From: a virus
DNA length: 30,259 bases
Strand: one strand, 5' to 3'
IMG/VR virus record: IMGVR_UViG_3300034418_007450
Location: 1-30,259 of that record
Shown here: positions 6,710 through 28,039 of the stretch, in pieces
How positions within the stretch are numbered: the stretch's first letter is position 1
Layout: every line of letters begins with the position of its first letter
The notes under the pieces: generated by a model
Seen by the model: the letters and a program-made list of their open reading frames with translations, nothing else
Told to the model about the DNA's origin: nothing
Database searches by the model: none
Translations under genes and position numbers: made by a program

Positions 6710-6961
6710 ATGTATAAGTATCGATATAAAATTAAAATGAACGAGGCCGACCCAGGTCGTGCTCAATTTCAAGAAAGACGTATGCAAGCTTTTAAAGAAA
6801 TTGAGGCTCGTTTAAATAATTTATATCCTATGTTAGACAATGCTAAAGACGAAACAGCAAATTACTACAAAGAAAACCCACAATCATACGCTGTAGTATA
6901 TGGAACTGATTTAGTCCTAGAATTAATAAAAGATATTGAAACAATATTAAAAGGAGAATAA
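6710..6961 (+). CDS. Small helical protein, unknown function
   Basis: An 83-aa protein (MYKYRYKIKMNEADPGRAQF at the N-terminus). I chose the ATG at 6710 rather than the upstream in-frame ATG at 6674, because 6674 would overlap the previous gene by 31 bases and add a peptide read from inside its coding end. The body is a charged amphipathic helix (QAFKEIEARLNNLYPMLDNA) followed by a second one (LVLELIKDIETILKGE), so a coiled-coil or helical hairpin is likely. Its stop overlaps the next start as TAATG. Position in the portal-protease block suggests a minor prohead core component, comparable in size to T4 gp67 or gp68, but I see no sequence match to either. Confidence 0.65.
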   Translation: MYKYRYKIKMNEADPGRAQFQERRMQAFKEIEARLNNLYPMLDNAKDETANYYKENPQSYAVVYGTDLVLELIKDIETILKGE

Positions 6962-8013
6962 TGAAACAACCAACATTACAAGAACAATACAACCTAATTA
7001 AAGAGGGAAAAGGACGTAAAGATATGTTCATGAAATCCGCTCGTAGGTTATTCCCTAATCTATTCACTCCTATCACTACTTTTGATACAGCAGTGTCTGT
7101 ATTAACAAGAAAATCTATTATCTCTGAAGGAATTGGTGGTGTTGTTACTGCTAAGTCTGCTAATCCTTTTATCAATTGGAAAGAGTTTTTAGCTGAAGAA
7201 GCTAAAGCAGAAGAGAAAAAACCTACTAAGGAAGTTACAGATATGGAAACTCGTGGGTTTGATTATAAAGATAAGAAAAATATTGATAACTTATATGGTG
7301 AAGCTTTCTTAGAAGGATATTATGCCGAAATGAAAGACCCTAAAAATGCAGATAAGTCTGTAGATGAGTTAAAAGAAATTGTAGCTAAAAATATGTCTAA
7401 GGACGTAAATTATTATATGAAAAACGCTGCGTTTGGAGTTAAAGGTATTGGCTACACAGATGACCTCCCAGGCTTGAAAGCCTCAAAAGACGACAAAATG
7501 ACAGCTGTCAAACTAAAAGAAAATATGATTAAATTAACTGACTTACTCAACGAAAATCTTTCGGGTTATGTAGATTTAGCTGCATTGAAAGAAGAAGAGG
7601 ATAAAATGGACGAAAATGCTCGTACTGATGCTGAAGAAGAGGGTTACCTTGATGGAATGCATGACGAGAAAGTAGACATGGAAGACAAAGCTAAAGACAA
7701 AGATAAAAAAGTTGAAAAAGAAGGCTTAGAAAATCGTCTCCGTCAAATCGAAGTAGCAGGTAACGTAGCTGCTTTAGAAGCTAAAATGAATGCGATTGAT
7801 GAAGAAATTGCTGCTCGTGAAGGTAAATTAGCTATGGTAGCTGAAAATGATGCTATCGCTGAATTTATCAACCCAACCCGCATCAAAGAAATCAACCGCG
7901 AAATTTCAGAATTACAAAAAGCACAAGCTAAATACGGCAAATTATACGAAAAAGTAGCTGGTAAAGCTTATGTAAAAAAAGAAGTTGTAGACGAGACTGA
8001 ATCTGAATACTAA
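6961..8013 (+). CDS. Acidic/charged protein sharing a module with the scaffold; candidate prohead core protein
   Basis: A 350-aa protein with one of the few real Shine-Dalgarno sequences here (AAGGAG, 5 nt before the ATG). The N-terminal ~65 residues (FMKSARRLFPNLFTPITTFD) look like a small folded or targeting segment, and LIKEGKG at residues 12-18 fits the L/I-x-E protease pattern. Residues about 80-200 hold a helical region (GEAFLEGYYAEMKDPKNADK). Residues 220-233 are ARTDAEEEGYLDGM, followed by HDEKVDMED, a module found twice more in the scaffold gene at 8793. A long coiled-coil-like helix (LENRLRQIEVAGNVAALEAK) makes up the C-terminal third. The shared module and location between portal and protease point to a second core or scaffold component that touches the same partner as gp22. 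This is inference. Confidence 0.72.
   Translation: MKQPTLQEQYNLIKEGKGRKDMFMKSARRLFPNLFTPITTFDTAVSVLTRKSIISEGIGGVVTAKSANPFINWKEFLAEEAKAEEKKPTKEVTDMETRGFDYKDKKNIDNLYGEAFLEGYYAEMKDPKNADKSVDELKEIVAKNMSKDVNYYMKNAAFGVKGIGYTDDLPGLKASKDDKMTAVKLKENMIKLTDLLNENLSGYVDLAALKEEEDKMDENARTDAEEEGYLDGMHDEKVDMEDKAKDKDKKVEKEGLENRLRQIEVAGNVAALEAKMNAIDEEIAAREGKLAMVAENDAIAEFINPTRIKEINREISELQKAQAKYGKLYEKVAGKAYVKKEVVDETESEY
7618..7686 (+). repeat. ARTDAEEEGYLDGM module, copy 1
   Basis: Codes for residues 220-242 of the 350-aa protein (ARTDAEEEGYLDGMHDEK plus VDMED). The first 18 residues are identical to copy 3 in the scaffold gene, and copy 2 differs only by K for H within them. The DNA differs at many synonymous third positions, so this is a protein-level repeat rather than a fresh duplication. 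Confidence 0.85.
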
Positions 8014-8014
8014 G

Positions 8015-8617
8015 ATGAAACAAGTTCTTATTGAAACTCAGCTCTTTAAAGCTAACCCTGTGTCATTGACAGAGGGTAAACTTTCCGAAAGAGGTAATCC
8101 TATGGTAGAAGGTATTTTAGCGACAGCCGAAGTCAAAAACGGCAACGGTCGTTACTATGCTAAAGACTTATGGGAAAGAGAGATCGATAAGTATATGGAG
8201 TCGGTTAAACAAAAAAGAGCATTAGGCGAATTAGACCACCCAGAATCTTCTATCATCAACCTTAAAAACGTATCACATAATATAGCTGATATGTGGTGGG
8301 ATGGAGATCACGTAGTTGGTAAAATTGAAATCTTACCTACTCCAAGTGGTAATATCTTAAAAGCACTTATTGATAGTGGAATTCAAGTCGGCGTATCTTC
8401 GCGCGGTATGGGTTCTCTCAAGCAAATGGGTGAAGTATTAGAGGTCCAAGATGATTTCGAGTTACTTTGTTGGGATTTTGTATCAACTCCATCTAACCCA
8501 GGTTCATACATGCATGTAATCAAAGAAGGTAAAGAACATTTAGTTGATTCATATGCCAAAGTAAACTCTATAATTACAGAAATCCTTTGTTCGAACGGAC
8601 AATGTCCTATTATCTAA
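8015..8617 (+). CDS. 21: Prohead maturation protease (T4 gp21-like)
   Basis: A 200-aa serine protease that sits in the prohead core and cleaves scaffold and capsid proteins after DNA-independent assembly. Family features seen: the MVEGILATAEVKNGNGRYY opening strand block (about 30-48), the catalytic histidine region GELDHPESS with His75, and the nucleophile region GVSSRGMGS with Ser128/Ser129. This is the His...Ser order of the T4 gp21/HK97-type prohead proteases. T4 gp21 is of similar size (212 aa). SLTEGKLSERG near residue 17 fits an L-x-E self-processing site. Starts one base after the previous stop, so translation is probably coupled. A terminator follows. Confidence 0.93.
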   Translation: MKQVLIETQLFKANPVSLTEGKLSERGNPMVEGILATAEVKNGNGRYYAKDLWEREIDKYMESVKQKRALGELDHPESSIINLKNVSHNIADMWWDGDHVVGKIEILPTPSGNILKALIDSGIQVGVSSRGMGSLKQMGEVLEVQDDFELLCWDFVSTPSNPGSYMHVIKEGKEHLVDSYAKVNSIITEILCSNGQCPII

Positions 8618-8632
8618 TTTAAGAAGCCTGCT

Positions 8633-8646
8633 ACCTTAGGCAAGGT
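8633..8646 (+). other. Hairpin ACCTT-AGGC-AAGGT overlapping the terminator stem
   Basis: A perfect 5-bp stem with a 4-nt loop just after the gp21 stop. Its 3' arm uses the GGT that also begins the terminator stem, so the two structures cannot form fully at once. Possible anti-terminator or just a short chance palindrome. Confidence 0.4.
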
Positions 8647-8668
8647 CCCCGAAAGGGGGCCTTTTTTT
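8644..8668 (+). terminator. Rho-independent terminator after gp21
   Basis: GGTCCCC, GAAA tetraloop, GGGGGCC (7-bp stem with one G-U pair), then seven T. It separates the packaging/protease block from the scaffold-capsid block. Confidence 0.9.
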
Positions 8669-8704
8669 ACCTTTGATATCTCTTTATATATGTATCAATA
8701 TAAT

Positions 8705-8724
8705 ATACCATCTCTATATGGTAT
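8705..8724 (+). other. Inverted repeat ATACCAT/ATGGTAT in the gp22 leader
   Basis: Perfect 7-bp arms with a 6-nt spacer (CTCTAT) in the 175-bp gap between gp21 and gp22. Either an operator-like DNA site upstream of the candidate promoter at 8731 or an RNA hairpin. No T tail, so not a terminator. Confidence 0.5.
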
Positions 8725-8730
8725 CAAGTG

Positions 8731-8739
8731 ATGTATAAT
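8731..8739 (+). promoter_or_regulatory. ATGTATAAT motif (candidate promoter for gp22-gp23)
   Basis: ATGTATAAT occurs here and again at 11782, in both cases in the gap after a terminator and before a gene that lacks the exact ATATTTATA motif. It shares TATAA with that motif. It leaves a 53-nt leader before the gp22 ATG. Promoter role is inferred. Confidence 0.4.
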
Positions 8740-8744
8740 ACTTA

Positions 8745-8766
8745 TTAAGGTTCCTAATAACCTTAA
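8745..8766 (+). promoter_or_regulatory. Hairpin in the gp22 5' leader
   Basis: TTAAGGTT, six-base loop CCTAAT, AACCTTAA: perfect 8-bp arms lying between the ATGTATAAT motif and the gp22 start, 26 nt upstream of the ATG. If transcription starts at the 8731 motif, this is near the 5' end of the scaffold-capsid mRNA, where a stem could stabilise the message. That role is inferred. Confidence 0.55.
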
Positions 8767-8792
8767 CTCCCAAACAAAAATTTTGAGGAAAA

Positions 8793-10019
8793 ATGGCAAA
8801 CAGAGACATGCTTGCAGAAGCAATCGCTGAGGCAAAAGCGCTTAAAGAAACCGCTATTGCTAACGCAAAAGCTGCTTTAGAAGAGGCCTTTGAACCAAGA
8901 TTGAAGTCAATGCTTTCAGCAAAACTTCAAGAAATGGAAAAAGAAGACTTAGACGAAGTAGAAGACGAAATGACTGAAGCCAAGAAGGAGTATAAAGACG
9001 ATGATCGTAAAGACGGAGGCGAAAGCAAAGAAACTAAGCGTACTGAAAAAATGAAGTACGGTAAAGACTTAGCTGAAGCTGAAGACATGGACGAAGAAAT
9101 GGATTTAGACGAACTCTTAGCTGAAATCGATGGTGAACTCGAAGAAGATGCCCGTACAGATGCCGAAGAAGAAGGCTATTTAGATGGTATGAAGGACGAG
9201 AAAGAGGACATGGAAGACGATATGGAAGACGAGGATATTGACCTCGAAGAAATGTCAGAAGATGATCTCAAATCATTTATCGAAGACGTAATTCGTGATA
9301 TGGTAGAAGGCGGTGAATTAGAAGCTGGCGACGAATTTGAAGTTGAAGACGACGAAGAAGGCGAAGACGAGGAAGAAGTTGACGTTGACGTAGATGTTGA
9401 AGACGAAGAAACTGTAGACGAAAACGCCCGCACAGATGCTGAAGAAGAAGGCTACTTAGACGGGATGCACGATGAAAAAGAGGATTTAGATGAAGCTGCA
9501 ATGGATAAACTTAAGCAACTTTACAATGACAAGGAATTACTTTCTAAAATCATTACTGTAGATGGTGAAAAAGTTTCTGTAAAAGACTTACTCAAATTAG
9601 CAGCATCAGGTGCTGTTGGTGGTATGAAAAAGTCTGGTGCAGGTCACGACATCGGTCCTAAAGAAGGCATGGAAGAAGTGGACGAAATGAAGAAAGAGAT
9701 CGAAGAATTAAGATCTGATCTTCAAGAAGTAAATTTACTCAATGCTAAACTTCTTTACACAAATAAAATCTTTAGAGCTAAAAACTTACAAGAAGCTCAA
9801 AAGGTAAAAGTTTTAGAAGCATTTGACAAGGCGTCAAGTGTAAAAGAAGTTAAACTTGTATTTGAAACTTTGAATGAAGGTATCAAAAATACTCCTAAAA
9901 CTCAAATCAAAGAATCATTAGGTTCAGCTTCTAAAGCAGCTGGTGTTGCCCAGAAAAGACCAATTATGGAAATTGATCCACAAGTGGCTAGATGGCAAAA
10001 ATTAGCTGGTATAAAATAA
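8793..10019 (+). CDS. 22: Prohead scaffold/core protein (T4 gp22-like)
   Basis: A 408-aa, very acidic protein. The N-terminus is helical (EAIAEAKALKETAIANAKAA); the middle (about 45-225) is Asp/Glu-rich and probably extended. The C-terminal part from residue 312, EVNLLNAKLLYTNKIFRAKN, with a following segment of the type KVLEAFDKASSVKEVKLVFE, is the signature I know from gp22-type scaffolds of marine T4-like phages. The scaffold forms the prohead core and is degraded by gp21. Two copies of ARTDAEEEGYLDGM lie at residues 120-133 and 212-225, and a third is in the gene at 6961. GAGG lies 4 nt before the ATG. Only 29 nt separate it from the capsid gene, so the two are probably co-transcribed. 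It is larger than T4 gp22 (269 aa), and the extra length is the acidic insert. Confidence 0.88.
   Translation: MANRDMLAEAIAEAKALKETAIANAKAALEEAFEPRLKSMLSAKLQEMEKEDLDEVEDEMTEAKKEYKDDDRKDGGESKETKRTEKMKYGKDLAEAEDMDEEMDLDELLAEIDGELEEDARTDAEEEGYLDGMKDEKEDMEDDMEDEDIDLEEMSEDDLKSFIEDVIRDMVEGGELEAGDEFEVEDDEEGEDEEEVDVDVDVEDEETVDENARTDAEEEGYLDGMHDEKEDLDEAAMDKLKQLYNDKELLSKIITVDGEKVSVKDLLKLAASGAVGGMKKSGAGHDIGPKEGMEEVDEMKKEIEELRSDLQEVNLLNAKLLYTNKIFRAKNLQEAQKVKVLEAFDKASSVKEVKLVFETLNEGIKNTPKTQIKESLGSASKAAGVAQKRPIMEIDPQVARWQKLAGIK
9150..9218 (+). repeat. ARTDAEEEGYLDGM module, copy 2
   Basis: Codes for residues 120-142 of the scaffold (ARTDAEEEGYLDGMKDEK plus EDMED). Copy 3 lies 276 bp downstream in the same gene, with synonymous differences. 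Confidence 0.85.
9426..9494 (+). repeat. ARTDAEEEGYLDGM module, copy 3
   Basis: Codes for residues 212-234 of the scaffold (ARTDAEEEGYLDGMHDEK plus EDLDE). Preceded by DEN, as in copy 1 (copy 2 has EED), so the module may extend a few residues upstream. Confidence 0.85.
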
Positions 10020-10048: not shown

Positions 10049-11713
10049 ATGTCACAAATTCAATCTCTTTTAGAGTCTGCTGGTGAAGGTTGGAAAAACC
10101 TCCAAAGCGACGCTGCTAGATTGGCTAACAAGTGGGAAAAGACAGGTTTATTAGAAGGTCTCGGTAGCGAGATTAATAAGAACAACATGTCTTTAATCCT
10201 TGAGAACCAAGCTAAGCAATTAGTAGTTGAGCAATCATCAACTGGTGGTTCAGCTAATTTCACAGTAGGTACAGGTGAGCAGTGGGCAGGCATCGCCCTC
10301 CCATTAGTTCGTAAGGTATTCGGTCAGATCGCTGCTAAAGAATTCGTTTCTGTACAGCCAATGAACTTACCTTCAGGTCTTGTATTCTATTTAGACTTCC
10401 AGTACGGTGATAATAAAAACCCATTCACACAGGGCGAATCACTTTACGGTACTAAGAATTCTGGTGCTTACCCATTCGAAACTGATGCCTCTAACTTAGG
10501 TGCAGTAAACACAGGTGGTTTATACGGTGCTGGTAGATTTACTTATTCTACTAACCAGTTTTCTTCTTCAGCTACAACAATGACTGTTGCTAGTTCAGGT
10601 TCAAACCAGGACATTAACTTCGACTCAAGATTAACTGCTTCTTTAGAGGCTGATGAGTTACACGTAGTTACTTTCCCATTATCAGCTATCCCTAACTATG
10701 ACCCAGAAGCAGTACGTGGATTCGTATTAGTTTCAGGTTCAACTGTTGGTGCTGATAACTTAGTAATGGCTTTAACTAAAGTAGTTGGTAATAACATCCA
10801 ATTCGTAGTTTCTGCTTCTGACGGTGTTATCACACAGGGCAACAACGCTATTGTATACTACCAAAAGCAAACTACAATGTCTCCTTACGAAGTAGGTGAT
10901 TTCGAAGCTGGTAACGACTATGCTTACCCTAACTCATTATCTCAAACTGACATCGACATCCCTGAGATCAACATTCAGATGAGAAGTGAGGCTATCGTAG
11001 CCAAGACTAAGAAGTTAAGAGCTGTTTGGACTCCTGAGTTCGCACAAGATCTTAACGCTTACCAAGCTCTTGACGCTGAAGCTGAAGTAACTAACATTAT
11101 GAGCGAGTACATTTCATTAGAAATCGACCTCGAGATCCTCGAAATGTTAATCAACGACGCTGCAGCTGGTACAGAGTACTGGTCAGCTCAAAACAACCGC
11201 CAACTCAACGCCGCTGGTACTGAGTTTACAGTAGACGCTTCTGGTTTCTACAATACACAAGGTGGTTGGTTCCAAACTTTAGGAACTAAGATCCAGAAGT
11301 TATCTAACAAGATTCACCAGTTAACTCTTAGAGGTGGTGCAAACTTTATGGTAATTTCTCCTGCTGTAGCTACTATCCTCGAGTCAATCCCTGGATACGC
11401 TTCTACTTCAGACGGTGATGTAACTAAAAACTATGCCTTCGGTGTTCAGAAAGCTGGTTCATTAAACAACAGAATGGATGTTTATAAGAACCCATACATG
11501 AACGAAAACTTAATCTTATTAGGTTACAGAGGTTCACAGTTCTTAGAGTCTGGTGCTGTATTTGCTCCATACATTCCGTTAATCATGACTCCGCTTATCT
11601 ACGATCCAGATACATTTACTCCACGTAAAGGTCTCTTAACTAGATACGCTAAGAAGATGATTCGTCCAGAATTCTACGCTAAATTATATGTAAACGGTTT
11701 AAATACCCTTTAA
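10049..11713 (+). CDS. 23: Major capsid protein (T4 gp23-like)
   Basis: A 554-aa protein (T4 gp23 is 521 aa) that forms the hexamers of the head shell with an HK97-type fold. Seen: a helical N-terminal propeptide region (about 1-61), then WAGIALPLVRKVFGQIAAKE, VSVQPMNLPSGLVFYLDFQY, the long insertion, FMVISPAVATILESIPG, and a C-terminal stretch of the type GAVFAPYIPLIMTPLIYDPD with TRYAKKMIRPEF. The propeptide offers several L/I-x-E sites for gp21: LLE9, LLE36 and ILE52. T4 gp23 is cut after Glu65, so removal of roughly 50-60 residues is expected. Codons look optimised for high expression (many CTC, AAC, TAC and GGT compared with neighbours). No Shine-Dalgarno; A-rich before the ATG. Ends at a strong terminator. 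Confidence 0.97.
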   Translation: MSQIQSLLESAGEGWKNLQSDAARLANKWEKTGLLEGLGSEINKNNMSLILENQAKQLVVEQSSTGGSANFTVGTGEQWAGIALPLVRKVFGQIAAKEFVSVQPMNLPSGLVFYLDFQYGDNKNPFTQGESLYGTKNSGAYPFETDASNLGAVNTGGLYGAGRFTYSTNQFSSSATTMTVASSGSNQDINFDSRLTASLEADELHVVTFPLSAIPNYDPEAVRGFVLVSGSTVGADNLVMALTKVVGNNIQFVVSASDGVITQGNNAIVYYQKQTTMSPYEVGDFEAGNDYAYPNSLSQTDIDIPEINIQMRSEAIVAKTKKLRAVWTPEFAQDLNAYQALDAEAEVTNIMSEYISLEIDLEILEMLINDAAAGTEYWSAQNNRQLNAAGTEFTVDASGFYNTQGGWFQTLGTKIQKLSNKIHQLTLRGGANFMVISPAVATILESIPGYASTSDGDVTKNYAFGVQKAGSLNNRMDVYKNPYMNENLILLGYRGSQFLESGAVFAPYIPLIMTPLIYDPDTFTPRKGLLTRYAKKMIRPEFYAKLYVNGLNTL

Positions 11714-16239: not shown

Positions 16240-18108
16240 GTGGCCCAAATTAATATTACACAAACCGGAACATCAGGAGTAGCAACCCCCAATAGTGGTG
16301 TTGTAGCTGTATTTTCTAATTCAGCCGATAATGGTGCTTTATACTATAGATTTTCAGATGGAACTTATGCCCCAGTAGGTAGTACTAGTGGTGGTGGGGG
16401 CACTAATGGCACATCAGGTTCTTCTGGTACATCAGGTTCTTCTGGTACTTCAGGTACAAACGGTTCAAGCGGAACTTCAGGTACAAACGGAACATCAGGT
16501 ACAAATGGTACTTCAGGTACAAACGGTGTAGATGGTTCAAGCGGAACATCAGGAACATCAGGTTCTTCAGGTGTTGACGGTACTTCAGGTTCATCTGGTA
16601 CTTCAGGAGAGAGTGGAACTTCAGGTTCTTCAGGAACTTCAGGAGAAAGTGGAACTTCAGGTTCTTCAGGAACTTCAGGAGAGAGCGGAACAAGCGGTTC
16701 ATCTGGTACATCAGGTGAGAGCGGAACTTCAGGTTCATCTGGTACTTCAGGAGAGAGTGGAACTTCAGGCACAAACGGAACTTCAGGTACAAACGGCTCA
16801 AGCGGAACTTCAGGCACAAACGGAACTTCAGGCACAAATGGTGCAGACGGCTCAAGCGGAACTTCAGGTACAAACGGCTCAAGCGGAACTTCAGGCACAA
16901 ACGGAACTTCAGGCACAAATGGTGCAGACGGCTCAAGCGGAACTTCAGGCACAAACGGCTCATCTGGTTCATCTGGTTCTTCAGGTACAGACGGTGCAGA
17001 TGGTTCAAGCGGAACTTCAGGTACAAACGGTACTTCAGGTACAAACGGTACTTCAGGTTCAAACGGCTCATCTGGTTCATCTGGTTCTTCAGGTACCTCA
17101 GGTGTAGGTACAGACGGTTCATCTGGTTCATCTGGTTCTTCAGGTACAGACGGTTCATCAGGCTCATCAGGTACTTCTGGTATAAATGGTACTTCTGGTA
17201 CTTCAGGTACAAACGGTACTTCAGGTACAAACGGTACTTCAGGTTCAAACGGCTCATCTGGTTCATCTGGTTCTTCAGGTACCTCAGGTGTAGGTACAGA
17301 CGGTTCATCAGGTACTTCAGGTACCTCAGGTGTAGGTACAGACGGTTCATCTGGTTCATCAGGTACTTCTGGTGTCGACGGTTCATCAGGTACTTCTGGT
17401 ATCAACGGTTCATCAGGTACATCTGGAGCTGATGGTTCATCTGGTACATCAGGTACTTCAGGAACTGGAGGAGGTATTTCAACAGTTTATACTAACGTAG
17501 TTAGATACGAATACTCATCAGGTAATGATTCAGCTCAACTAATGTCATCCGGTACATTATTTGGAGGATTGAGTTGGACTCGTTCAGGTACTACTTTGAC
17601 AGTAACATCAACTGCTCACGGTTTGACAACTGGTGATTATGTAGTACTAAGAGGATTCAACGTTGATTATTTTCACGTTTCAATCACATCAACTGGTGCT
17701 AATACATTTACTTGTACAGTAACTGATACAGGTGCAACTAGTGGTACAGCAGGTGCTTACATTCCTGTATTGAATGCTTCTACAATTAGTGATTCAGCTA
17801 TTGAAATTGAAGCCCCATCAGCAGGAAATGTTCAGTTGATTTCAATGCAAGTTTATATTGATAACTCAGAAACAAACCCTAAATCATTTACAGTGCCAGC
17901 AAATGCACTTACTAATGGTGCAGGAGGTAATAGTTCACTCACCTCCAGAATCCCACCAGTATTTATTGCTTGGAACGTAGCAGGTGCTAACTCTTCTAGA
18001 ATTGGTACAGGATCCTTAACTTTTGTAACAGGTGGTGCTGCAAACGTTTATGGTTTATCAGGTGGTTTAGATATTTTTGGCTCAGTAATGATGACATTTA
18101 ATTTCTAA
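16240..18108 (+). CDS. Collagen-like fibre protein 1 (Gly-X-Y repeats, HGL-type C-terminal domain)
   Basis: A 622-aa protein; the only GTG start in the set (GTG GCC CAA ATT), supported by the ATATTTATA motif and the lack of a closer ATG. Residues 1-50 (MAQINITQTGTSGVATPNSG) are a small beta part ending in YYRFSDGTYAPVGS, like other fibre attachment tips. Residues 54-409 are Gly-X-Y repeats of GTS, GSS, GTN, GES and GAD type with almost no proline. There are five tandem 36-bp units and three one-residue register breaks at GVGTDG. Residues 410-622 are a globular beta domain with LTVTSTAHGLTTGDYVVLRG, the 'aHGLttGd.V' motif seen in phage tail and fibre proteins. Probably a trimeric fibre with a C-terminal tip. 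A terminator follows. Confidence 0.88.
   Translation: MAQINITQTGTSGVATPNSGVVAVFSNSADNGALYYRFSDGTYAPVGSTSGGGGTNGTSGSSGTSGSSGTSGTNGSSGTSGTNGTSGTNGTSGTNGVDGSSGTSGTSGSSGVDGTSGSSGTSGESGTSGSSGTSGESGTSGSSGTSGESGTSGSSGTSGESGTSGSSGTSGESGTSGTNGTSGTNGSSGTSGTNGTSGTNGADGSSGTSGTNGSSGTSGTNGTSGTNGADGSSGTSGTNGSSGSSGSSGTDGADGSSGTSGTNGTSGTNGTSGSNGSSGSSGSSGTSGVGTDGSSGSSGSSGTDGSSGSSGTSGINGTSGTSGTNGTSGTNGTSGSNGSSGSSGSSGTSGVGTDGSSGTSGTSGVGTDGSSGSSGTSGVDGSSGTSGINGSSGTSGADGSSGTSGTSGTGGGISTVYTNVVRYEYSSGNDSAQLMSSGTLFGGLSWTRSGTTLTVTSTAHGLTTGDYVVLRGFNVDYFHVSITSTGANTFTCTVTDTGATSGTAGAYIPVLNASTISDSAIEIEAPSAGNVQLISMQVYIDNSETNPKSFTVPANALTNGAGGNSSLTSRIPPVFIAWNVAGANSSRIGTGSLTFVTGGAANVYGLSGGLDIFGSVMMTFNF
16399..17466 (+). repeat. 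Gly-X-Y repeat region of fibre 1
   Basis: About 1.07 kb coding for residues 54-409. The X and Y positions are mostly Ser and Thr, with Asn, Asp, Glu and Val markers. Blocks such as GTNGADGSSGTSGTNGSSG occur in near-duplicate, and the block around GVGTDGSSGSSG recurs. Confidence 0.95.
16606..16785 (+). repeat. Five tandem 36-bp units (GESGTSGSSGTS)
   Basis: GES codons start at 16606, 16642, 16678, 16714 and 16750, exactly 36 bp apart. The units differ at third positions (GGA/GGT, AGT/AGC, TCT/TCA), and the fifth has GTN in place of GSS. Confidence 0.93.
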
Positions 18109-18205: not shown

Positions 18206-21200
18206 ATGGCCCACGACCAACTCTTTTACGGAGCCTTATCTAACGTTACCCCTATTGCATCTGGAAGCAATAGTTACGTTCGAGTTAGAGGTGATTACAA
18301 CACGGCTTCAAAAACAATTGAAAATGTCTCAAACGAAGGCTCATATCTCAACATAGATTATGTACGCCCTGGTCAAACTTTAGTAGCTAGCGGTCCTTTT
18401 TCAGCAGGTACTGTTGTAGTTTCGGTTGATACCGGAGCTGCTACTATTACAGTGGCAGATTTCCCGGCTACCACCGCTACTAACGTAGTAACTAGAATCT
18501 CCCCAGCACCTGGTGAGTACTATATAGCCTCAGCGTCTTTCCTAGACCCTAACACACAAGTTCCTATTAGTACTAAAAATATTACTGGTAGTAACGACCC
18601 AGAATATCAATCAAGCTTATCCCCTATTTACACAGTTATTGGTCCAGCTCGTGTGCCAGGAGGATCATCACCAATTGAGGGTGAATATCATTTATATAAT
18701 ATTAAAGAAGTTTATTATAGAAACGGTGCTGGTACAGAAGCATCTTTTTATATTGGATGGGGTGAAGACGGAACAGAATCAGAAACAGGTACTGTATTAT
18801 TAGGAACATCGAACCAACAAGTAGGTATTGTTGCTGTTACCCCTTCACAATCATTAGCCCCTATTTTTAGCTCTAGACTCTCAGGTCTAACTAGTTTACC
18901 TGTTGGTACTGATATAGCAGCATATCAAGTAGCAGTAACTGCTTTCTTTGATAACCTAAGCACTTCAGGTGGTGCTGGTTCAGCTGGTTCATCTGGTACA
19001 TCAGGTTCAAGTGGATCATCAGGCACTTCAGGCGAATCAGGTACATCAGGTACTTCAGGTGAATCTGGTTCTTCTGGTTCATCAGGTACTTCAGGTGAAT
19101 CTGGCTCATCAGGTTCTTCAGGTACTTCAGGTGAATCTGGCTCATCAGGTTCATCAGGTACATCGGGTTCATCAGGAGTAAGTGGCGTAGACGGCACTTC
19201 AGGTACTTCAGGTTCATCAGGTTCATCAGGTGAATCTGGTTCTTCTGGTTCATCAGGTACTTCAGGTTCAAGCGGCTCATCTGGCACATCTGGCTCATCT
19301 GGTTCATCAGGAACTAGTGGCTCGTCAGGCGTTTCAGGCGTAGACGGCACTTCAGGTACTAGTGGCTCATCAGGTTCATCAGGTACTTCAGGATCTTCAG
19401 GCTCCTCAGGTACAAGCGGTTCATCTGGTACCTCAGGTTCATCAGGTTCATCGGGAACTAGCGGATCTTCAGGTGTTTCTGGTGTAGACGGCACTTCGGG
19501 TACTAGTGGCTCATCAGGTTCATCAGGTACTTCAGGATCTTCAGGCTCCTCAGGTACAAGTGGTTCATCTGGTTCATCTGGTACATCTGGTTCATCTGGT
19601 TCATCAGGAACTAGTGGCTCGTCAGGCGTTTCAGGCGTAGACGGCACTTCCGGCACATCTGGTTCATCAGGTTCCTCAGGTTCATCAGGCTCATCAGGTT
19701 CATCTGGTTCCTCAGGCTCATCAGGTACTTCAGGTTCATCAGGTTCATCAGGTACATCTGGTTCTTCAGGTGTTTCTGGTGTAGACGGTACTTCAGGTAC
19801 CTCAGGTTCAAGTGGCTCATCAGGTACTTCAGGCTCATCAGGTTCATCAGGAACTAGTGGTTCATCTGGTTCATCAGGAACTTCAGGTTCAAGCGGCTCA
19901 TCTGGTACATCTGGATCATCAGGTGTAAGTGGTGTAGATGGTACTTCTGGTACTTCAGGCTCATCAGGCTCATCAGGAACTTCAGGCTCATCAGGTAGTT
20001 CAGGCACATCCGGTTCTTCAGGCTCATCAGGTACTTCAGGTTCATCAGGCTCATCAGGTACATCTGGTTCTTCAGGTGTTTCAGGCGTAGACGGAACTTC
20101 AGGTACTTCAGGTTCAAGCGGTTCATCAGGCACATCTGGTTCATCAGGTAGTTCAGGTACATCTGGTTCATCAGGTTCATCTGGTACATCAGGTTCAAGT
20201 GGCTCATCAGGTACTTCAGGATCTTCTGGTGTTTCTGGTGTAGACGGTACTTCAGGTACATCTGGTTCATCAGGTTCATCAGGTACTTCAGGCTCATCAG
20301 GTTCATCAGGAACTAGTGGTTCTTCAGGTTCATCAGGCACTTCAGGTTCAAGCGGCTCATCTGGTACATCAGGTTCATCAGGTGTTTCTGGTGTAGACGG
20401 CACTTCTGGTACATCTGGTTCATCAGGTTCATCTGGTTCATCAGGTTCATCAGGAACTAGTGGTTCTTCAGGTTCATCAGGCACCTCAGGTTCAAGCGGC
20501 TCATCTGGTACATCAGGTTCATCTGGTGTTTCAGGTGTAGATGGTACTTCTGGCACATCTGGTTCATCAGGTTCTTCTGGTTCATCAGGTTCATCAGGTA
20601 CTTCAGGCTCATCAGGTTCATCTGGTACTAGCGGTTCATCAGGTTCATCTGGTACATCTGGATCATCAGGTGTAAGTGGTGTAGACGGTACTTCAGGCAC
20701 ATCTGGCTCATCAGGCTCATCTGGTTCATCAGGTTCATCAGGAACTTCAGGCTCATCAGGTTCATCTGGTACTAGCGGTTCATCTGGTACTAGCGGTTCA
20801 TCTGGTTCATCTGGTTCAAGCGGTTCTTCAGGAACTAGCGGTTCATCAGGCTCATCAGGTACTTCTGGTTCATCTGGTTCATCAGGTACTTCAGGTTCAT
20901 CAGGTTCATCAGGAACATCAGGTTCGTCAGGAACTTCAGGCTCATCAGGTTCGTCAGGTACTTCAGGCTCATCAGGCGTAAGCGGTGTAGACGGTACTTC
21001 AGGTACATCTGGCTCTTCAGGCTCATCTGGTACTTCAGGTTCATCAGGTTCATCAGGAACATCAGGTTCAAGTGGTTCATCAGGTACATCTGGCTCATCA
21101 GGCTCATCAGGAACATCAGGCTCATCAGGAGTTTCAGGTGTAGACGGTACTTCTGGCACATCTGGTTCATCAGGTTCTTCTGGTTCATCTGGTTCATCAG

Positions 21201-24200
21201 GAACTTCAGGCTCATCAGGTTCATCTGGTACAAGTGGTTCATCAGGTTCATCAGGAACTTCAGGCTCATCAGGTGTAAGCGGTGTAGACGGTACTTCAGG
21301 CACATCTGGTTCATCAGGTTCATCAGGCACTTCAGGCTCATCAGGTTCATCTGGCACATCAGGTTCAAGCGGTTCATCAGGTACATCTGGCTCATCAGGT
21401 TCATCAGGAACTAGTGGCTCGTCAGGTGTTTCAGGCGTAGACGGTACTTCAGGCACATCTGGCTCATCAGGCTCATCAGGTACTTCAGGATCTTCTGGTT
21501 CATCAGGTACATCTGGATCATCTGGTTCATCAGGTACAAGCGGTTCATCTGGTACAAGTGGCTCATCAGGTACAAGCGGTTCATCAGGCTCATCAGGTAC
21601 ATCAGGTTCGTCTGGTTCATCTGGTACAAGTGGCTCATCAGGTAGTTCAGGTTCGTCTGGCACATCTGGATCATCTGGTTCATCAGGTACAAGTGGTTCA
21701 TCAGGCTCATCTGGTACATCAGGTTCATCTGGTGTTTCTGGTGTAGACGGCACTTCAGGTACTTCTGGTTCATCTGGTTCATCAGGCACTTCAGGTAGCT
21801 CAGGTTCATCAGGTACTAGCGGATCTTCAGGTTCGTCAGGCACTTCTGGTAGCTCAGGCTCATCTGGTACATCAGGTTCATCTGGTGTTTCTGGCGTAGA
21901 TGGTACTTCAGGCACATCTGGCTCATCAGGCACATCTGGCTCATCAGGTACATCTGGTTCATCAGGTTCTTCTGGTTCATCTGGTTCATCTGGTTCATCT
22001 GGTACATCTGGTTCATCTGGTTCTTCAGGCACATCTGGTTCTTCAGGTACTAGCGGTTCATCAGGTACTTCAGGATCTTCAGGTTCATCTGGTACATCAG
22101 GTTCTTCTGGCTCTTCAGGCACATCTGGTTCTTCAGGTTCATCTGGTACATCTGGTAGCTCAGGCTCATCAGGCACTTCAGGTTCATCAGGTGTAAGTGG
22201 TGTAGACGGCACTTCAGGAACTTCAGGTTCAAGCGGTTCATCAGGTACATCTGGCTCATCTGGTTCATCAGGTACTAGTGGTTCATCAGGCACTTCAGGT
22301 AGCTCAGGTTCATCAGGTACATCAGGTTCTTCAGGTGTTTCAGGCGTAGACGGTACTTCAGGCACATCTGGTTCATCAGGTTCATCAGGTACTTCAGGAT
22401 CTTCAGGTTCATCAGGTACTAGCGGATCTTCAGGCTCATCAGGCACTTCAGGTTCAAGTGGTTCATCAGGTACTTCAGGCTCATCAGGCGTAAGCGGTGT
22501 AGACGGTACTTCAGGTACATCTGGCTCTTCAGGCTCATCTGGTTCATCAGGCTCATCAGGTACTAGCGGTTCATCAGGCTCATCAGGTACTTCAGGTAGT
22601 TCAGGTTCATCAGGCACATCTGGTTCTTCAGGTGTAAGCGGTGTAGACGGTACTTCTGGTACTTCAGGTTCATCTGGTACAAGTGGTTCATCAGGTACTT
22701 CAGGTTCATCTGGTTCTTCAGGCACTAGCGGATCTTCAGGTTCATCTGGTACATCTGGCTCATCAGGCTCATCAGGTACTTCAGGATCTTCAGGTTCATC
22801 AGGTACTTCAGGTTCATCAGGAACATCAGGATCTTCAGGCTCATCAGGTACTTCAGGCTCATCAGGCACTAGCGGATCTTCAGGTTCTTCAGGCACTAGC
22901 GGATCTTCAGGTTCTTCAGGTACTAGCGGATCTTCAGGCGTTTCAGGCGTAGACGGAACATCAGGAACATCAGGCTCTTCAGGCTCTTCAGGTACTTCAG
23001 GAAGTTCAGGTTCATCCGGAACATCAGGATCTTCAGGCTCATCAGGTACCTCAGGCTCATCAGGTAGCTCAGGCACATCTGGTTCATCTGGTACTTCAGG
23101 TTCATCTGGTACTTCAGGCTCTTCAGGTACATCTGGCTCATCTGGATCATCTGGTACATCTGGTTCATCAGGAACATCAGGTAGTTCAGGCTCATCAGGT
23201 ACATCAGGAAGCTCTGGTTCATCAGGCACATCTGGTTCTTCAGGCGTAAGTGGTGTAAACGGTACTTCAGGTACAAGTGGTTCATCTGGTACTAGTGGTT
23301 CAAGCGGTACTTCAGGATCTTCAGGTTCATCTGGTTCGTCTGGTTCATCTGGTACATCTGGTTCGTCTGGTTCATCAGGAACAAGTGGATCATCAGGTAC
23401 AAGCGGTTCATCAGGAACTAGCGGTTCATCAGGTTCATCTGGTACATCTGGATCATCTGGTTCATCAGGTACTTCAGGAAGTTCAGGTTCATCTGGTACA
23501 AGCGGTTCATCAGGAACATCAGGCTCATCAGGCTCATCAGGCACTTCAGGCTCATCAGGCGTAAGTGGTGTAAACGGTACTTCAGGTACAAGTGGTTCAT
23601 CTGGTACTAGTGGTTCAAGCGGTTCATCTGGAACTAGCGGTTCATCAGGTTCATCAGGAACATCGGGCTCATCAGGCTCATCAGGTACATCTGGATCATC
23701 AGGCGTTTCAGGAGTAGATGGTACTTCAGGTACTAGCGGCTCATCAGGAACATCAGGTTCTTCAGGAACTAGTGGTTCATCAGGTACAAGCGGCTCATCA
23801 GGTTCTTCAGGTACATCAGGCAGTTCAGGCTCAAGCGGTACTTCAGGAAGTTCAGGTACTTCAGGTTCTTCGGGAACTAGTGGCTCAAGTGGTACTTCAG
23901 GCAGTTCAGGTTCATCAGGCACATCTGGTAGCTCAGGTTCTTCAGGTACGTCTGGTTCATCAGGTACTAGCGGTTCATCAGGCTCATCAGGTACAAGTGG
24001 ATCATCAGGCGTAAGCGGTGTAAACGGTACTTCAGGTACAAGCGGTTCATCAGGTACTTCAGGTAGCTCAGGCTCATCTGGTACAAGTGGTTCATCAGGT
24101 TCATCAGGTACGTCTGGATCAAGCGGTACAAGCGGTTCATCAGGTACTAGTGGTTCATCAGGCACAAGCGGAACAAGCGGTTCATCAGGTTCAAGCGGTA

Positions 24201-27200
24201 CTTCAGGTAGCTCAGGCTCATCTGGTACAAGTGGTTCATCTGGTACTTCAGGAAGTTCTGGTTCATCAGGAACTAGCGGTTCATCAGGTTCATCAGGAAC
24301 TTCAGGTTCTTCTGGTGTAAGCGGTGTAAACGGTACTTCAGGTACATCTGGTTCATCAGGAACAAGTGGTTCAAGCGGTACTTCAGGCTCATCTGGTTCT
24401 TCAGGTACTTCAGGTTCAAGCGGTTCATCAGGAACAAGCGGTTCTTCAGGCTCATCAGGCACATCTGGATCAAGCGGTACAAGCGGTTCATCAGGTACAA
24501 GCGGTTCATCAGGAACTTCAGGTTCATCTGGTTCATCAGGCTCATCTGGTTCATCAGGCACTTCAGGTTCATCAGGAACTAGCGGAAGTTCGGGCTCATC
24601 TGGTACATCTGGTTCATCAGGTGTTTCAGGCGTAAACGGAACTTCAGGTACTTCAGGTTCATCAGGTACTTCAGGATCTTCAGGTTCATCAGGTACAAGC
24701 GGTTCATCAGGCTCATCTGGTACATCTGGTTCATCAGGTACAAGCGGATCTTCAGGTACTAGTGGTTCATCAGGAACTTCAGGTTCAAGTGGCTCATCAG
24801 GCTCATCTGGTTCATCAGGCACTTCAGGCTCATCTGGTACATCAGGTTCAAGTGGTACATCCGGAAGTTCAGGTTCATCAGGAACTAGCGGAAGTTCAGG
24901 TTCATCAGGCACATCTGGTTCATCAGGCGTAAGCGGTGTAAACGGTACTTCAGGTACTTCAGGTTCATCAGGTACTTCAGGATCTTCAGGTTCATCAGGT
25001 ACTAGCGGATCATCAGGTTCATCTGGTACTAGTGGTTCATCAGGTACTAGCGGTTCATCTGGTACTAGTGGTTCATCAGGAACTTCAGGTTCAAGTGGCT
25101 CATCAGGCTCATCTGGTTCATCAGGTACTAGTGGTTCATCAGGAACTTCAGGTTCATCAGGTACTTCAGGATCTTCAGGTTCATCAGGAACTAGTGGAAG
25201 TTCAGGCTCATCAGGTACATCTGGTTCATCAGGTGTTTCAGGCGTAAATGGTACTTCAGGAACATCAGGTTCATCAGGTTCTTCAGGAACAAGCGGTTCA
25301 TCAGGTAGTTCAGGAACATCAGGTTCATCAGGAACAAGTGGTTCATCTGGTTCATCAGGTAGCTCAGGCTCATCTGGTACAAGCGGATCAAGCGGTACAA
25401 GCGGATCAAGCGGTACAAGCGGTTCATCAGGAACTAGCGGGTCAAGCGGTTCATCAGGTAGTTCAGGTTCATCTGGTACTAGTGGTTCAAGTGGCACTTC
25501 AGGATCTTCAGGTTCATCAGGTACATCTGGTTCATCAGGCGTAAGTGGTGTAAACGGTACTTCAGGTACATCTGGTTCATCAGGTTCATCAGGCACTTCA
25601 GGTTCATCAGGTACAAGTGGTTCAAGCGGTACTTCAGGTTCTTCAGGTTCATCTGGTTCATCAGGTTCATCAGGAACTAGCGGTTCTTCAGGAACTAGCG
25701 GTTCTTCAGGAACTAGTGGCTCATCTGGTTCATCAGGTAGCTCAGGCTCATCTGGTACAAGTGGTTCATCAGGTACTAGTGGTTCATCAGGAACATCAGG
25801 TAGTTCAGGTTCATCAGGAACTAGCGGTTCATCAGGCGTAAGCGGTGTAAATGGTACTTCTGGAACATCTGGTTCATCTGGTACAAGCGGTTCATCTGGC
25901 TCATCTGGTAGTTCAGGTTCATCAGGCACTTCAGGTTCATCTGGTACTTCAGGTTCATCTGGCACATCTGGTTCATCAGGTTCAAGTGGTACTTCAGGAA
26001 CTAGCGGCTCTTCAGGCACAAGCGGTTCATCAGGAACAAGTGGTTCATCAGGCTCATCTGGTAGTTCAGGTTCATCTGGTACTAGTGGTTCATCAGGAAC
26101 TAGCGGTTCATCAGGATCATCAGGTACAAGTGGATCATCAGGCGTAAGCGGTGTAAACGGCACTTCAGGAACATCAGGTTCATCAGGTACTAGCGGCTCT
26201 TCAGGTACAAGCGGTTCATCAGGTTCATCAGGTAGCTCAGGCTCATCTGGTACAAGCGGATCAAGCGGTACTTCAGGTTCGTCAGGAACTAGCGGATCAT
26301 CAGGTTCTTCAGGTTCATCTGGTTCATCTGGTACAAGCGGTTCAAGCGGTACAAGCGGATCTTCAGGTACAAGTGGTTCAAGCGGTTCATCTGGTTCATC
26401 AGGTTCAAGCGGTACTTCAGGTACCAGTGGTTCATCAGGTACTAGCGGATCTTCAGGTACTAGCGGATCTTCAGGTACTAGCGGTTCAAGTGGTTCATCT
26501 GGTTCATCAGGCTCATCTGGTACAAGCGGATCAAGCGGTACTTCAGGTTCATCAGGAACTAGTGGTTCATCTGGTTCATCAGGAACTTCAGGCTCATCAG
26601 GCGTAAGCGGTGTAAACGGTACTTCAGGTACATCAGGTTCATCAGGAACAAGTGGATCATCAGGAACAAGCGGTTCATCAGGTTCTTCAGGTAGCTCAGG
26701 TTCATCTGGTACAAGCGGATCAAGCGGCACTTCAGGTTCATCAGGTACTAGCGGTTCAAGCGGCACAAGTGGATCATCAGGTTCATCAGGTTCATCAGGT
26801 TCAAGCGGTACTTCTGGATCATCAGGTACTAGCGGTTCTTCAGGAACTAGTGGTTCATCTGGAACAAGTGGATCAAGCGGATCATCAGGTACAAGTGGAT
26901 CATCAGGCGTAAGCGGTGCTAACGGAACTTCAGGAACATCTGGTTCATCTGGAACAAGTGGTTCATCAGGTTCAAGCGGTACTTCAGGTACAAGCGGTTC
27001 ATCAGGTTCAAGCGGTACTTCAGGTACAAGCGGTTCATCTGGTACGTCAGGTTCATCTGGTACTTCAGGTTCATCAGGAACATCAGGTTCATCTGGTTCA
27101 TCAGGTACAAGTGGTAACTCAGGTACGTCTGGTTCATCTGGAACAAGCGGATCAAGTGGCACAAGTGGATCTTCAGGTTCATCAGGTACATCTGGTTCAT

Positions 27201-28039
27201 CAGGCGTAAGCGGTGCTAACGGAACTTCAGGAACATCTGGTTCATCTGGAACAAGTGGTTCATCAGGCTCATCAGGTACAAGTGGTACAGCTACTATTAC
27301 TAATAACGCTGATAATAGAGTTATTACAGGTGGTACTGGTGCAAACCTAAATGGTGAAGCTAACCTAACATTTGATGGAACAACATTGACTGTAACAGGT
27401 GGTATCACAGCTACAATTGGAACAGGTACTGATAACTCAGTAGTAGTTAAAAACGCAACAAACCAACTTGTAACAGACGAAATTGATTCTCGTGTTTGGG
27501 GTTCAAGCTTAGTAGACGGTTCAGGTGTTGCTACTTATGTAACATATTGGTCAGATGCTAATACAGTTACTGGTGAGGCTGCGTTTACTTATAACGCTAC
27601 TACAAACCTATTGACAGTAGATAATATCTCAGGATTTACAGCTGCAGGTAGTATTGATATGAATAGTTTTGATATTACCAACATACAAACTCTCCAAGCT
27701 GCAGAAAAGAACTTCGATATTCCTCACCCAACTAAAGAAGGATGGAGATTACGTTACTCAGTTCTTGAAGGCCCAGAAAGAGGTGTTTATGTTCGTGGCA
27801 AAGTAGAAGGCGAAGGCGTAATTACCCTCCCAGACTACTGGATCGGATTAGTATACGAAGATAGTATTACAGTTGATCTAACCCCAATCGGTAAAGCGTG
27901 CACTCACTACGTAATTAGCGCTAACAGTACACAAATCAACGTAGGTTGTGAGTGTGGAAATGTCAACGCCTACTACGTGGTATTTGCAGAAAGAAAAGCA
28001 GCAGAACCAGTATGGGTTGAGTATCAAGTAGTACAATAA
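18206..28039 (+). CDS. Giant collagen-like fibre protein 2 (3277 aa)
   Basis: A 9.8-kb gene. Residues 1-254 are a non-repetitive N-terminal domain (SYVRVRGDYNTASKTIENVS; EYHLYNIKEVYYRNGAGTEA), probably the virion attachment end. Residues 255-3027 are about 924 Gly-X-Y triplets, nearly all GSS and GTS, with GVSGVD, GVSGVN or GVSGAN markers and almost no proline. Residues 3028-3277 are the tip: fibre-type beta repeats (NLTFDGTTLTVTGG; GSIDMNSFDITNIQ), then from residue 3169 NFDIPHPTKEGWRLRYSVLE, GPERGVYVRGK, LPDYWIGLVYEDSITVDLTP and YYVVFAERK. This HPTK...LEGPE...VY.RG...LPDYW...LTPIG domain recurs in fibre proteins of marine T4-like phages as I remember them. The glycine register is unbroken through 8.3 kb, which argues for selection and against misassembly. 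No proline means a classical stable collagen helix is uncertain; a polyglycine-II-like bundle or a flexible glycosylated rod are alternatives. Confidence 0.92.
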   Translation: MAHDQLFYGALSNVTPIASGSNSYVRVRGDYNTASKTIENVSNEGSYLNIDYVRPGQTLVASGPFSAGTVVVSVDTGAATITVADFPATTATNVVTRISPAPGEYYIASASFLDPNTQVPISTKNITGSNDPEYQSSLSPIYTVIGPARVPGGSSPIEGEYHLYNIKEVYYRNGAGTEASFYIGWGEDGTESETGTVLLGTSNQQVGIVAVTPSQSLAPIFSSRLSGLTSLPVGTDIAAYQVAVTAFFDNLSTSGGAGSAGSSGTSGSSGSSGTSGESGTSGTSGESGSSGSSGTSGESGSSGSSGTSGESGSSGSSGTSGSSGVSGVDGTSGTSGSSGSSGESGSSGSSGTSGSSGSSGTSGSSGSSGTSGSSGVSGVDGTSGTSGSSGSSGTSGSSGSSGTSGSSGTSGSSGSSGTSGSSGVSGVDGTSGTSGSSGSSGTSGSSGSSGTSGSSGSSGTSGSSGSSGTSGSSGVSGVDGTSGTSGSSGSSGSSGSSGSSGSSGSSGTSGSSGSSGTSGSSGVSGVDGTSGTSGSSGSSGTSGSSGSSGTSGSSGSSGTSGSSGSSGTSGSSGVSGVDGTSGTSGSSGSSGTSGSSGSSGTSGSSGSSGTSGSSGSSGTSGSSGVSGVDGTSGTSGSSGSSGTSGSSGSSGTSGSSGSSGTSGSSGSSGTSGSSGVSGVDGTSGTSGSSGSSGTSGSSGSSGTSGSSGSSGTSGSSGSSGTSGSSGVSGVDGTSGTSGSSGSSGSSGSSGTSGSSGSSGTSGSSGSSGTSGSSGVSGVDGTSGTSGSSGSSGSSGSSGTSGSSGSSGTSGSSGSSGTSGSSGVSGVDGTSGTSGSSGSSGSSGSSGTSGSSGSSGTSGSSGTSGSSGSSGSSGSSGTSGSSGSSGTSGSSGSSGTSGSSGSSGTSGSSGTSGSSGSSGTSGSSGVSGVDGTSGTSGSSGSSGTSGSSGSSGTSGSSGSSGTSGSSGSSGTSGSSGVSGVDGTSGTSGSSGSSGSSGSSGTSGSSGSSGTSGSSGSSGTSGSSGVSGVDGTSGTSGSSGSSGTSGSSGSSGTSGSSGSSGTSGSSGSSGTSGSSGVSGVDGTSGTSGSSGSSGTSGSSGSSGTSGSSGSSGTSGSSGTSGSSGTSGSSGSSGTSGSSGSSGTSGSSGSSGSSGTSGSSGSSGTSGSSGSSGTSGSSGVSGVDGTSGTSGSSGSSGTSGSSGSSGTSGSSGSSGTSGSSGSSGTSGSSGVSGVDGTSGTSGSSGTSGSSGTSGSSGSSGSSGSSGSSGTSGSSGSSGTSGSSGTSGSSGTSGSSGSSGTSGSSGSSGTSGSSGSSGTSGSSGSSGTSGSSGVSGVDGTSGTSGSSGSSGTSGSSGSSGTSGSSGTSGSSGSSGTSGSSGVSGVDGTSGTSGSSGSSGTSGSSGSSGTSGSSGSSGTSGSSGSSGTSGSSGVSGVDGTSGTSGSSGSSGSSGSSGTSGSSGSSGTSGSSGSSGTSGSSGVSGVDGTSGTSGSSGTSGSSGTSGSSGSSGTSGSSGSSGTSGSSGSSGTSGSSGSSGTSGSSGTSGSSGSSGTSGSSGTSGSSGSSGTSGSSGSSGTSGSSGVSGVDGTSGTSGSSGSSGTSGSSGSSGTSGSSGSSGTSGSSGSSGTSGSSGTSGSSGTSGSSGTSGSSGSSGTSGSSGTSGSSGSSGTSGSSGSSGTSGSSGVSGVNGTSGTSGSSGTSGSSGTSGSSGSSGSSGSSGTSGSSGSSGTSGSSGTSGSSGTSGSSGSSGTSGSSGSSGTSGSSGSSGTSGSSGTSGSSGSSGTSGSSGVSGVNGTSGTSGSSGTSGSSGSSGTSGSSGSSGTSGSSGSSGTSGSSGVSGVDGTSGTSGSSGTSGSSGTSGSSGTSGSSGSSGTSGSSGSSGTSGSSGTSGSSGTSGSSGTSGSSGSSGTSGSSGSSGTSGSSGTSGSSGSSGTSGSSGVSGVNGTSGTSGSSGTSGSSGSSGTSGSSGSSGTSGSSGTSGSSGTSGSSGTSGTSGSSGSSGTSGSSGSSGTSGSSGTSGSSGSSGTSGSSGSSGTSGSSGVSGVNGTSGTSGSSGTSGSSGTSGSSGSSGTSGSSGSSGTSGSSGSSGTSGSSGTSGSSGTSGSSGTSGSSGSSGSSGSSGTSGSSGTSGSSGSSGTSGSSGVSGVNGTSGTSGSSGTSGSSGSSGTSGSSGSSGTSGSSGTSGSSGTSGSSGTSGSSGSSGSSGSSGTSGSSGTSGSSGTSGSSGSSGTSGSSGSSGTSGSSGVSGVNGTSGTSGSSGTSGSSGSSGTSGSSGSSGTSGSSGTSGSSGTSGSSGTSGSSGSSGSSGSSGTSGSSGTSGSSGTSGSSGSSGTSGSSGSSGTSGSSGVSGVNGTSGTSGSSGSSGTSGSSGSSGTSGSSGTSGSSGSSGSSGSSGTSGSSGTSGSSGTSGSSGTSGSSGSSGSSGSSGTSGSSGTSGSSGSSGTSGSSGVSGVNGTSGTSGSSGSSGTSGSSGTSGSSGTSGSSGSSGSSGSSGTSGSSGTSGSSGTSGSSGSSGSSGSSGTSGSSGTSGSSGTSGSSGSSGTSGSSGVSGVNGTSGTSGSSGTSGSSGSSGSSGSSGTSGSSGTSGSSGTSGSSGSSGTSGTSGSSGTSGSSGTSGSSGSSGSSGSSGTSGSSGTSGSSGSSGTSGSSGVSGVNGTSGTSGSSGTSGSSGTSGSSGSSGSSGSSGTSGSSGTSGSSGTSGSSGSSGSSGSSGTSGSSGTSGSSGTSGSSGSSGSSGSSGTSGTSGSSGTSGSSGTSGSSGTSGSSGSSGSSGSSGTSGSSGTSGSSGTSGSSGSSGTSGSSGVSGVNGTSGTSGSSGTSGSSGTSGSSGSSGSSGSSGTSGSSGTSGSSGTSGSSGTSGSSGSSGSSGSSGTSGSSGTSGSSGTSGSSGTSGSSGSSGTSGSSGVSGANGTSGTSGSSGTSGSSGSSGTSGTSGSSGSSGTSGTSGSSGTSGSSGTSGSSGTSGSSGSSGTSGNSGTSGSSGTSGSSGTSGSSGSSGTSGSSGVSGANGTSGTSGSSGTSGSSGSSGTSGTATITNNADNRVITGGTGANLNGEANLTFDGTTLTVTGGITATIGTGTDNSVVVKNATNQLVTDEIDSRVWGSSLVDGSGVATYVTYWSDANTVTGEAAFTYNATTNLLTVDNISGFTAAGSIDMNSFDITNIQTLQAAEKNFDIPHPTKEGWRLRYSVLEGPERGVYVRGKVEGEGVITLPDYWIGLVYEDSITVDLTPIGKACTHYVISANSTQINVGCECGNVNAYYVVFAERKAAEPVWVEYQVVQ
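18968..27286 (+). repeat. 8.3-kb Gly-X-Y array with 153-bp higher-order repeat
   Basis: Base unit is 9 bp (one Gly-X-Y triplet). The next level is GTS-GSS-GSS (27 bp) early and GTS-GSS (18 bp) late. The highest level is set by 36 GVSG[VA][DN] markers: 23 VD, 11 VN and 2 AN. Marker spacings measured from the Val/Ala codon are 144, 153, 297, 306, 315 or 459 bp. Single spacings dominate up to about 22.6 kb and doubled ones after it. Confidence 0.95.

Follow-up and report, generated by a model that had tools for sequence, protein, structure and literature searches.

A conserved peptide module behind predicted protease sites in the scaffold and other putative prohead-core proteins of T4-like phages

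Introduction

The closest described system to the one considered here is the prohead core of phage T4 (gp22, gp67, gp68 and internal proteins) together with the protease gp21. The cleavage consensus of gp21 is hydrophobic-x-Glu (hereafter Phi-x-E), L/I-X-E being all that it requires, and several fragments arise from the T4 core proteins by cleavage (PMC9026906). Furthermore, differing head-internal proteins of T4 share a capsid targeting sequence (CTS), a short segment of 10-19 residues that is N-terminal and precedes the protease cut to which it is tied (PMC9026906). This article addresses a peptide module carried by head genes of an uncultured T4-like phage, a fragment of which is the virus record IMGVR_UViG_3300034418_007450 (30,259 bases; this whole stretch is called the window). 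Rightward, the window encodes TerL, the portal gp20, the products of three unknown genes, a 350-aa protein, an S77 prohead protease, the scaffold, gp23 and PhoH. The portal, the S77 protease, the scaffold position and gp23 thus stand as in a T4-like head operon (T4 order 20-67-68-21-22-23). The likeness to T4 extends to acidic core proteins and to the hydrophobic-x-Glu consensus but not to the module, as T4 gp22, gp67 and gp68 have no comparable shared repeat.

A sequence-only reading of the window had noticed the peptide in the scaffold and in the 350-aa protein and had proposed a docking motif for a common partner inside the prohead. The present analysis goes beyond it by a protease-site boundary, a third family of carriers and a second, exchangeable module. 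The two modules, A and C, are read here as interchangeable linear docking motifs of prohead-core proteins, with a protease site at their edge, that would be freed at maturation; this reading has a probability of about one half.

A peptide repeated in two head genes

As the sequence-only reading had stated, 14 residues, ARTDAEEEGYLDGM, are identical in three places of the window, once in the 350-aa protein (residues 220-233) and twice in the scaffold (Table 1), each copy being followed by [HK]DEK[EV]D[ML] and an acidic run. The chance expectation for the three exact matches is 0.00 (100 shuffles), which excludes chance or low complexity as the source of the repeat. The three copies are also alike further upstream, up to a Phi-x-E-[DN] edge (MDE/N, LEE/D and VDE/N, the slash marking the predicted cut).

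The motif search that the sequence-only reading had recommended found no further copy in the 30-kb record and gathered 167 distinct copies of the whole block, module A, from viral contigs of uncultured relatives; module A alone had no tblastn match in cultured phages, the query probably being masked as low complexity. With the first A numbered 0, nine residues are invariant in all 167 copies, namely R1, A4, E5, E7, G8, Y9, D11, G12 and D15, and positions 0, 10, 14, 18 and 21 are variable. Such a spacing, we infer, would be compatible with a helix exposing one of its faces; AlphaFold predicts the region as disordered. The stretch DAEEEGYLD superficially resembles an EF-hand-like calcium loop (D-x-E-x-E-G-x-L-D). 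This identity is hardly credible, since loop position 8 is hydrophobic in 103/167 copies and K or E in 64/167, and position 12 is acidic in only 28/167, which largely refutes it.

The codons of the copies were compared at 12 invariant positions. Between copies of different genomes, the mean number of differences is 0.5 at first positions, 0 at second and 4.9 at third, when random synonymous choice predicts 5.2 third-position differences. Synonymous sites are therefore saturated while second positions never differ, and strong selection on the peptide, already deduced in the sequence-only reading from the many synonymous changes, is well supported. The presence of one short segment in several genes, at varying positions in the third family, could also suggest a functionless DNA repeat, either mobile or copied recently, that recombination has carried from one gene to its neighbours. 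However, the scaffold and 350-aa copies of one genome are as far apart as copies from different genomes (5.05 differences, p=0.68), so that the two genes show no trace of recent copying of DNA from one to the other. This saturation, together with the constant second positions, refutes a mobile repeat as sole explanation and leaves it very improbable. Copies within one gene are somewhat closer (3.8 differences), as expected for internal duplications.

A predicted protease site at the front edge of module A

Upstream, conservation ends abruptly at position -4 and the flanks beyond it are not conserved. In 129/129 scaffold copies, [LVIM]-x-E occupies positions -4 to -2, when the background frequency of a hydrophobic residue two before Glu is 26%, and Phi-x-E/[DN] forms the front edge of the conserved block in all of them. 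The same pattern at -4 to -2 is found in 22/33 copies of the 350-aa family. A like pattern, [LIVM]xE, occupies the gp23 propeptide position in 156/156 homologues and the site behind residue 56 of the 350-aa protein in 47/48 aligned relatives. Owing to this edge and to its counterparts, the conserved unit of about 25 aa is most simply read as a predicted protease site plus about 22 residues behind it.

An edge of this kind could have another meaning. The module might be an exosite of the prohead protease, which would bind the 20 residues behind the cut so that core proteins are processed first or more efficiently; module A indeed starts exactly at the predicted cut, and multiple copies mean multiple cuts, tandem copies being parted by MSE/D. 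Nevertheless, the predicted sites of gp23 and of the 350-aa N-terminus in the same phages have no module, L/I-X-E alone suffices for T4 gp21 (PMC9026906), and a protease 96% identical to that of the window serves a phage without module A, all of which makes an exosite rather unlikely. The module might also be a functional internal peptide that stays in the head after cleavage, for example for charge balance or DNA condensation. Its acidity and the fragmentation of the T4 core proteins agree with this, as does the presence, in about 50 copies, of a second Phi-x-E whose end lies 23 residues beyond the first A. However, most copies are devoid of this downstream site, and charge alone would not need fixed G, Y, R and A residues; a retained peptide is accordingly less probable still than an exosite.

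The two carriers of the window

The sequence-only reading had made the 350-aa protein a second core component. This appears likely from the position of its gene directly upstream of gp21, i.e. in the place of gp68/gp67, from its predicted cleavage site and from the module that it shares with the scaffold. The protein has no Pfam or PHROG match and no homology to T4 gp67/gp68 by profile (hhalign probability about 0.1%), and a fold search with its model retrieved two unnamed phage proteins and no PDB match. AlphaFold predicts a confident three-helix N-terminal domain (1-52), a disordered segment (200-253) and a confident C-terminal helical hairpin (256-333). Most homologues have the first ~180 residues in common and many have the hairpin; module A lies in the variable linker between the N-terminal region and the hairpin. 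Its location in a predicted disordered linker, as would be the case for a docking motif, is supported by these models.

The scaffold owes its name to its position and composition, as it matches no Pfam or PHROG family at E<=0.001. Its C-terminal motif includes RWQKLAGI, which among relatives occurs at scaffold C-termini and at the N-termini of 13 other proteins (KRMQKLAGLITE or similar), many of them carrying module C, with 0 internal occurrences. This sharing points the same way as the confinement of the modules to putative core proteins. Such N-termini are seen in L265, L274, L296 and L316, and in many of the 13 proteins a predicted protease site stands directly behind the motif.

The nearest cultured relative found, Flavobacterium phage immuto (Immutovirus), has the gene order of the window, and its 350-aa and scaffold proteins are only partly similar. 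The likeness lies in the 350-aa N-terminus (43-44%) and in the scaffold C-terminus (60%), where the last 100 aa of the window protein resemble the immuto protein at the same position. Neither immuto protein has module A, and its scaffold has its own, different duplicated segment (EGFEQWLDSVSAQMDKF... and EGFEQWLDSVSAQMDKFGKNNPTIQAIEKAV). This scaffold is annotated as 'DNA polymerase phi-like protein' (L260 15582-16823, immuto35A_203), probably a misnomer due to acidic stretches.

A third family of carriers and a second module

Among relatives, module A is also found in acidic proteins encoded outside the head operon (L140, L217, L233 and L240, the last of these from a metagenome bin). These third-family proteins carry it at differing places along the chain and have in common a QIGNTxxFFTR-like C-terminal region; no PHROG matched them convincingly, and tblastn against cultured phages retrieved nothing. 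Many of their N-termini resemble targeting sequences; those of module carriers include MNNQFKRMQKLAGLITE/G and MADNFDLKKFLKEN. The third-family proteins are likely to be head-internal. The genes beside the third-family gene in L140 and L217 also start with short amphipathic stretches.

A second module, module C (YEYEKGKxAGE), takes the slots of ARTDAEEEGY in the scaffold, 350-aa and third families, its carriers including L079 (residue 238 of the 350-aa homologue), L128, L151, L277, L290 and L313. In the 350-aa slot of L079, L008 and several others, YEYEKGKxAGEK replaces module A. A scan for module C retrieved 22 distinct contexts in scaffolds, 10 in the 350-aa family and 18 in others, mostly of the third family. 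In its commonest form, Phi-x-E/G[EKM][AG]AYEYEKGKxAGEK, G8 and G12 lie as far from the predicted cut as they do in module A. L277 and L140 have similar N-termini and a module at one common place, C in L277 and A in L140, and seven scaffolds carry both modules. When 18 whole contigs, of up to 166 kb, were scanned with profiles, 24 matches to A or C were obtained, all in proteins of the scaffold, 350-aa and third families; on four of these contigs, a third-family protein with module C is encoded at a distance of 16-31 kb from the genes of gp23, the scaffold and the 350-aa protein. The 350-aa slot is the only place where two rarer candidate modules, B (RDAEKDDAAHI) and D (GEEEVYGAGV), were observed. 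A bolder extension, less probable than the docking reading itself, is that these phages build the core from a small vocabulary of exchangeable cassettes (A, the C subtypes and perhaps B and D) lying beside a protease site, which would define core membership and be swapped between unrelated core proteins and between phages.

This distribution recalls T4 capsid targeting, and the module could be a core-sorting signal with no separate structural role: it occurs in otherwise unrelated proteins, some with targeting-like N-termini, and is restricted to presumed core proteins. By analogy, it resembles the T4 targeting sequences in idea, being short, tied to a prohead-protease site and common to differing proteins, but fails their defining N-terminal position. 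Indeed, the CTS is N-terminal and ends at the protease site, whereas module A, with about 25 residues, begins at the site, is internal and repeated, and is also present in the scaffold. Moreover, most copies are in the scaffold, the main core component, which should need no sorting. A sorting signal is therefore improbable, to about the same degree as a retained internal peptide.

Docking in the prohead core

In the docking reading, the module would be a short linear motif in disordered linkers of the scaffold, of the 350-aa protein and, in relatives, of a third acidic protein. During assembly, it would hold its carriers to a common surface, the core or the inner capsid wall, or to one another, several copies providing avidity; at maturation, the protease would cut before the motif and release the contact. 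The sequences themselves show the conservation of the motif, its Phi-x-E edge, its restriction to three gene families, the T4 gene order and the exchange with module C at the same sites; the reading further supposes a core location for every carrier, cleavage at the edge and a binding partner. Possible partners are the portal, the gp23 face that looks inward, and the core proteins, which may bind one another. The protease is a less likely one, given its near-identity in a phage devoid of module A, L079, although that phage carries module C.

Several observations weigh against this reading. The 15 core positions of module A were scored in 125 scaffolds and in 127 proteins of the 350-aa family, a sample partly drawn by module search, so that the frequency of the module is not readable from the counts: module A is missing from 46/125 scaffolds and from 97/127 homologues of the 350-aa protein. 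Scores are either 13-15 or 8 and below, with nothing between, i.e. module A is intact or absent but never half-decayed, a distribution that for its part favours the docking reading. On the protease tree, the module undergoes a minimum of 6 changes of state in the 350-aa family and of 15 in the scaffold. L079, a close relative of the window phage (protease 96%, portal 81% and gp23 69% identical), has no module A in either protein; with such a protease, this absence implies that module A is not obligatory. Homologous scaffolds lacking the module were what the sequence-only reading had named as evidence against itself. Their number counts against an obligatory partner, and the motif does not stand as obligatory, some phages having another module in the slot.

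Module A is present in both proteins in 18 cases, in the scaffold only in 46, in the 350-aa protein only in 2 and in neither in 37. This co-occurrence is suggestive (Fisher p=0.004) and not significant with kinship removed, the independent pairs being few. Scaffold and 350-aa proteins without module A show no excess of shared 6-mers within phages (5/90) over those across phages (122/1778), so that peptide sharing does not extend to every such pair. Also unfavourable are the 11/33 copies of the 350-aa family with an off-consensus T or A at -4, and two module C subtypes without Phi-x-E in that register (E at -2 in 32/50) whose upstream residues differ. Finally, neither a docked nor a helical module appears in the AlphaFold models of the 350-aa protein and of a protease-scaffold stop-read-through fusion from L153; the latter folded too poorly (mean pLDDT of 52, below 50 in both modules) to speak for or against docking on the protease.

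Other features of the window

Table 1. Positions of the genes, module copies and related features discussed in the text (in the window or, where an L number is given, in that relative; a slash marks a predicted cut)
Feature	Position	Strand	Remarks
350-aa protein, candidate second core component	6961..8013	+	T4 gene-68 position, between portal and S77 protease
Predicted prohead-protease site ISE/G after residue 56 of the 350-aa protein	7120..7131	+	conserved in relatives
Module copy 1, MDE/NARTDAEEEGYLDGMHDEKVDMED	7606..7686	+	in 350-aa protein; exact 14-mer 7618-7659
Prohead (S77) protease, gp21 homologue	8015..8617	+	PF03420 2.3e-32, phrog_207 4.2e-59; presumed cut at Phi-x-E
gp22-position scaffold, acidic (pI 4.2)	8793..10019	+	two module copies; between gp21 and gp23 homologues
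Module copy 2, LEE/DARTDAEEEGYLDGMKDEKEDMED	9138..9218	+	in scaffold; exact 14-mer 9150-9191
Module copy 3, VDE/NARTDAEEEGYLDGMHDEKEDLDE	9414..9494	+	in scaffold; exact 14-mer 9426-9467
Scaffold C-terminal ARWQKLAGIK motif	9987..10016	+	in relatives, also N-terminal in other putative core proteins
gp23 major capsid protein	10049..11713	+	PF07068 4.3e-74; predicted V-x-E site at T4 E65/A66 position
Third-family protein, L140	2225-2965	-	
Third-family protein, L217	4974-5657	-	
Third-family protein, L233	12128-12814	+	
Third-family proteins, L274, L290, L313			

For gp23, ILENQAK was considered as the mature N-terminus and dropped, as comparison with T4 places this end at the later V-x-E. Downstream, the window carries three adjacent repeat genes: those at 16240-18108 and 18206-28039 have Pfam Collagen matches (1176 bits for one of 3277 aa), and the one at 28064-30259 is similarly made of a GP-rich repeat. 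The repeats probably also account, as a by-product, for a very long open frame that runs along the opposite strand (18925-27408).

Significance for T4-like phages

A near-invariant peptide common to several core proteins provides a handle to fish out its partner. Furthermore, the module could predict unrecognised core proteins from sequence alone, as for the third family, and may perhaps be usable to direct foreign proteins into phage heads.

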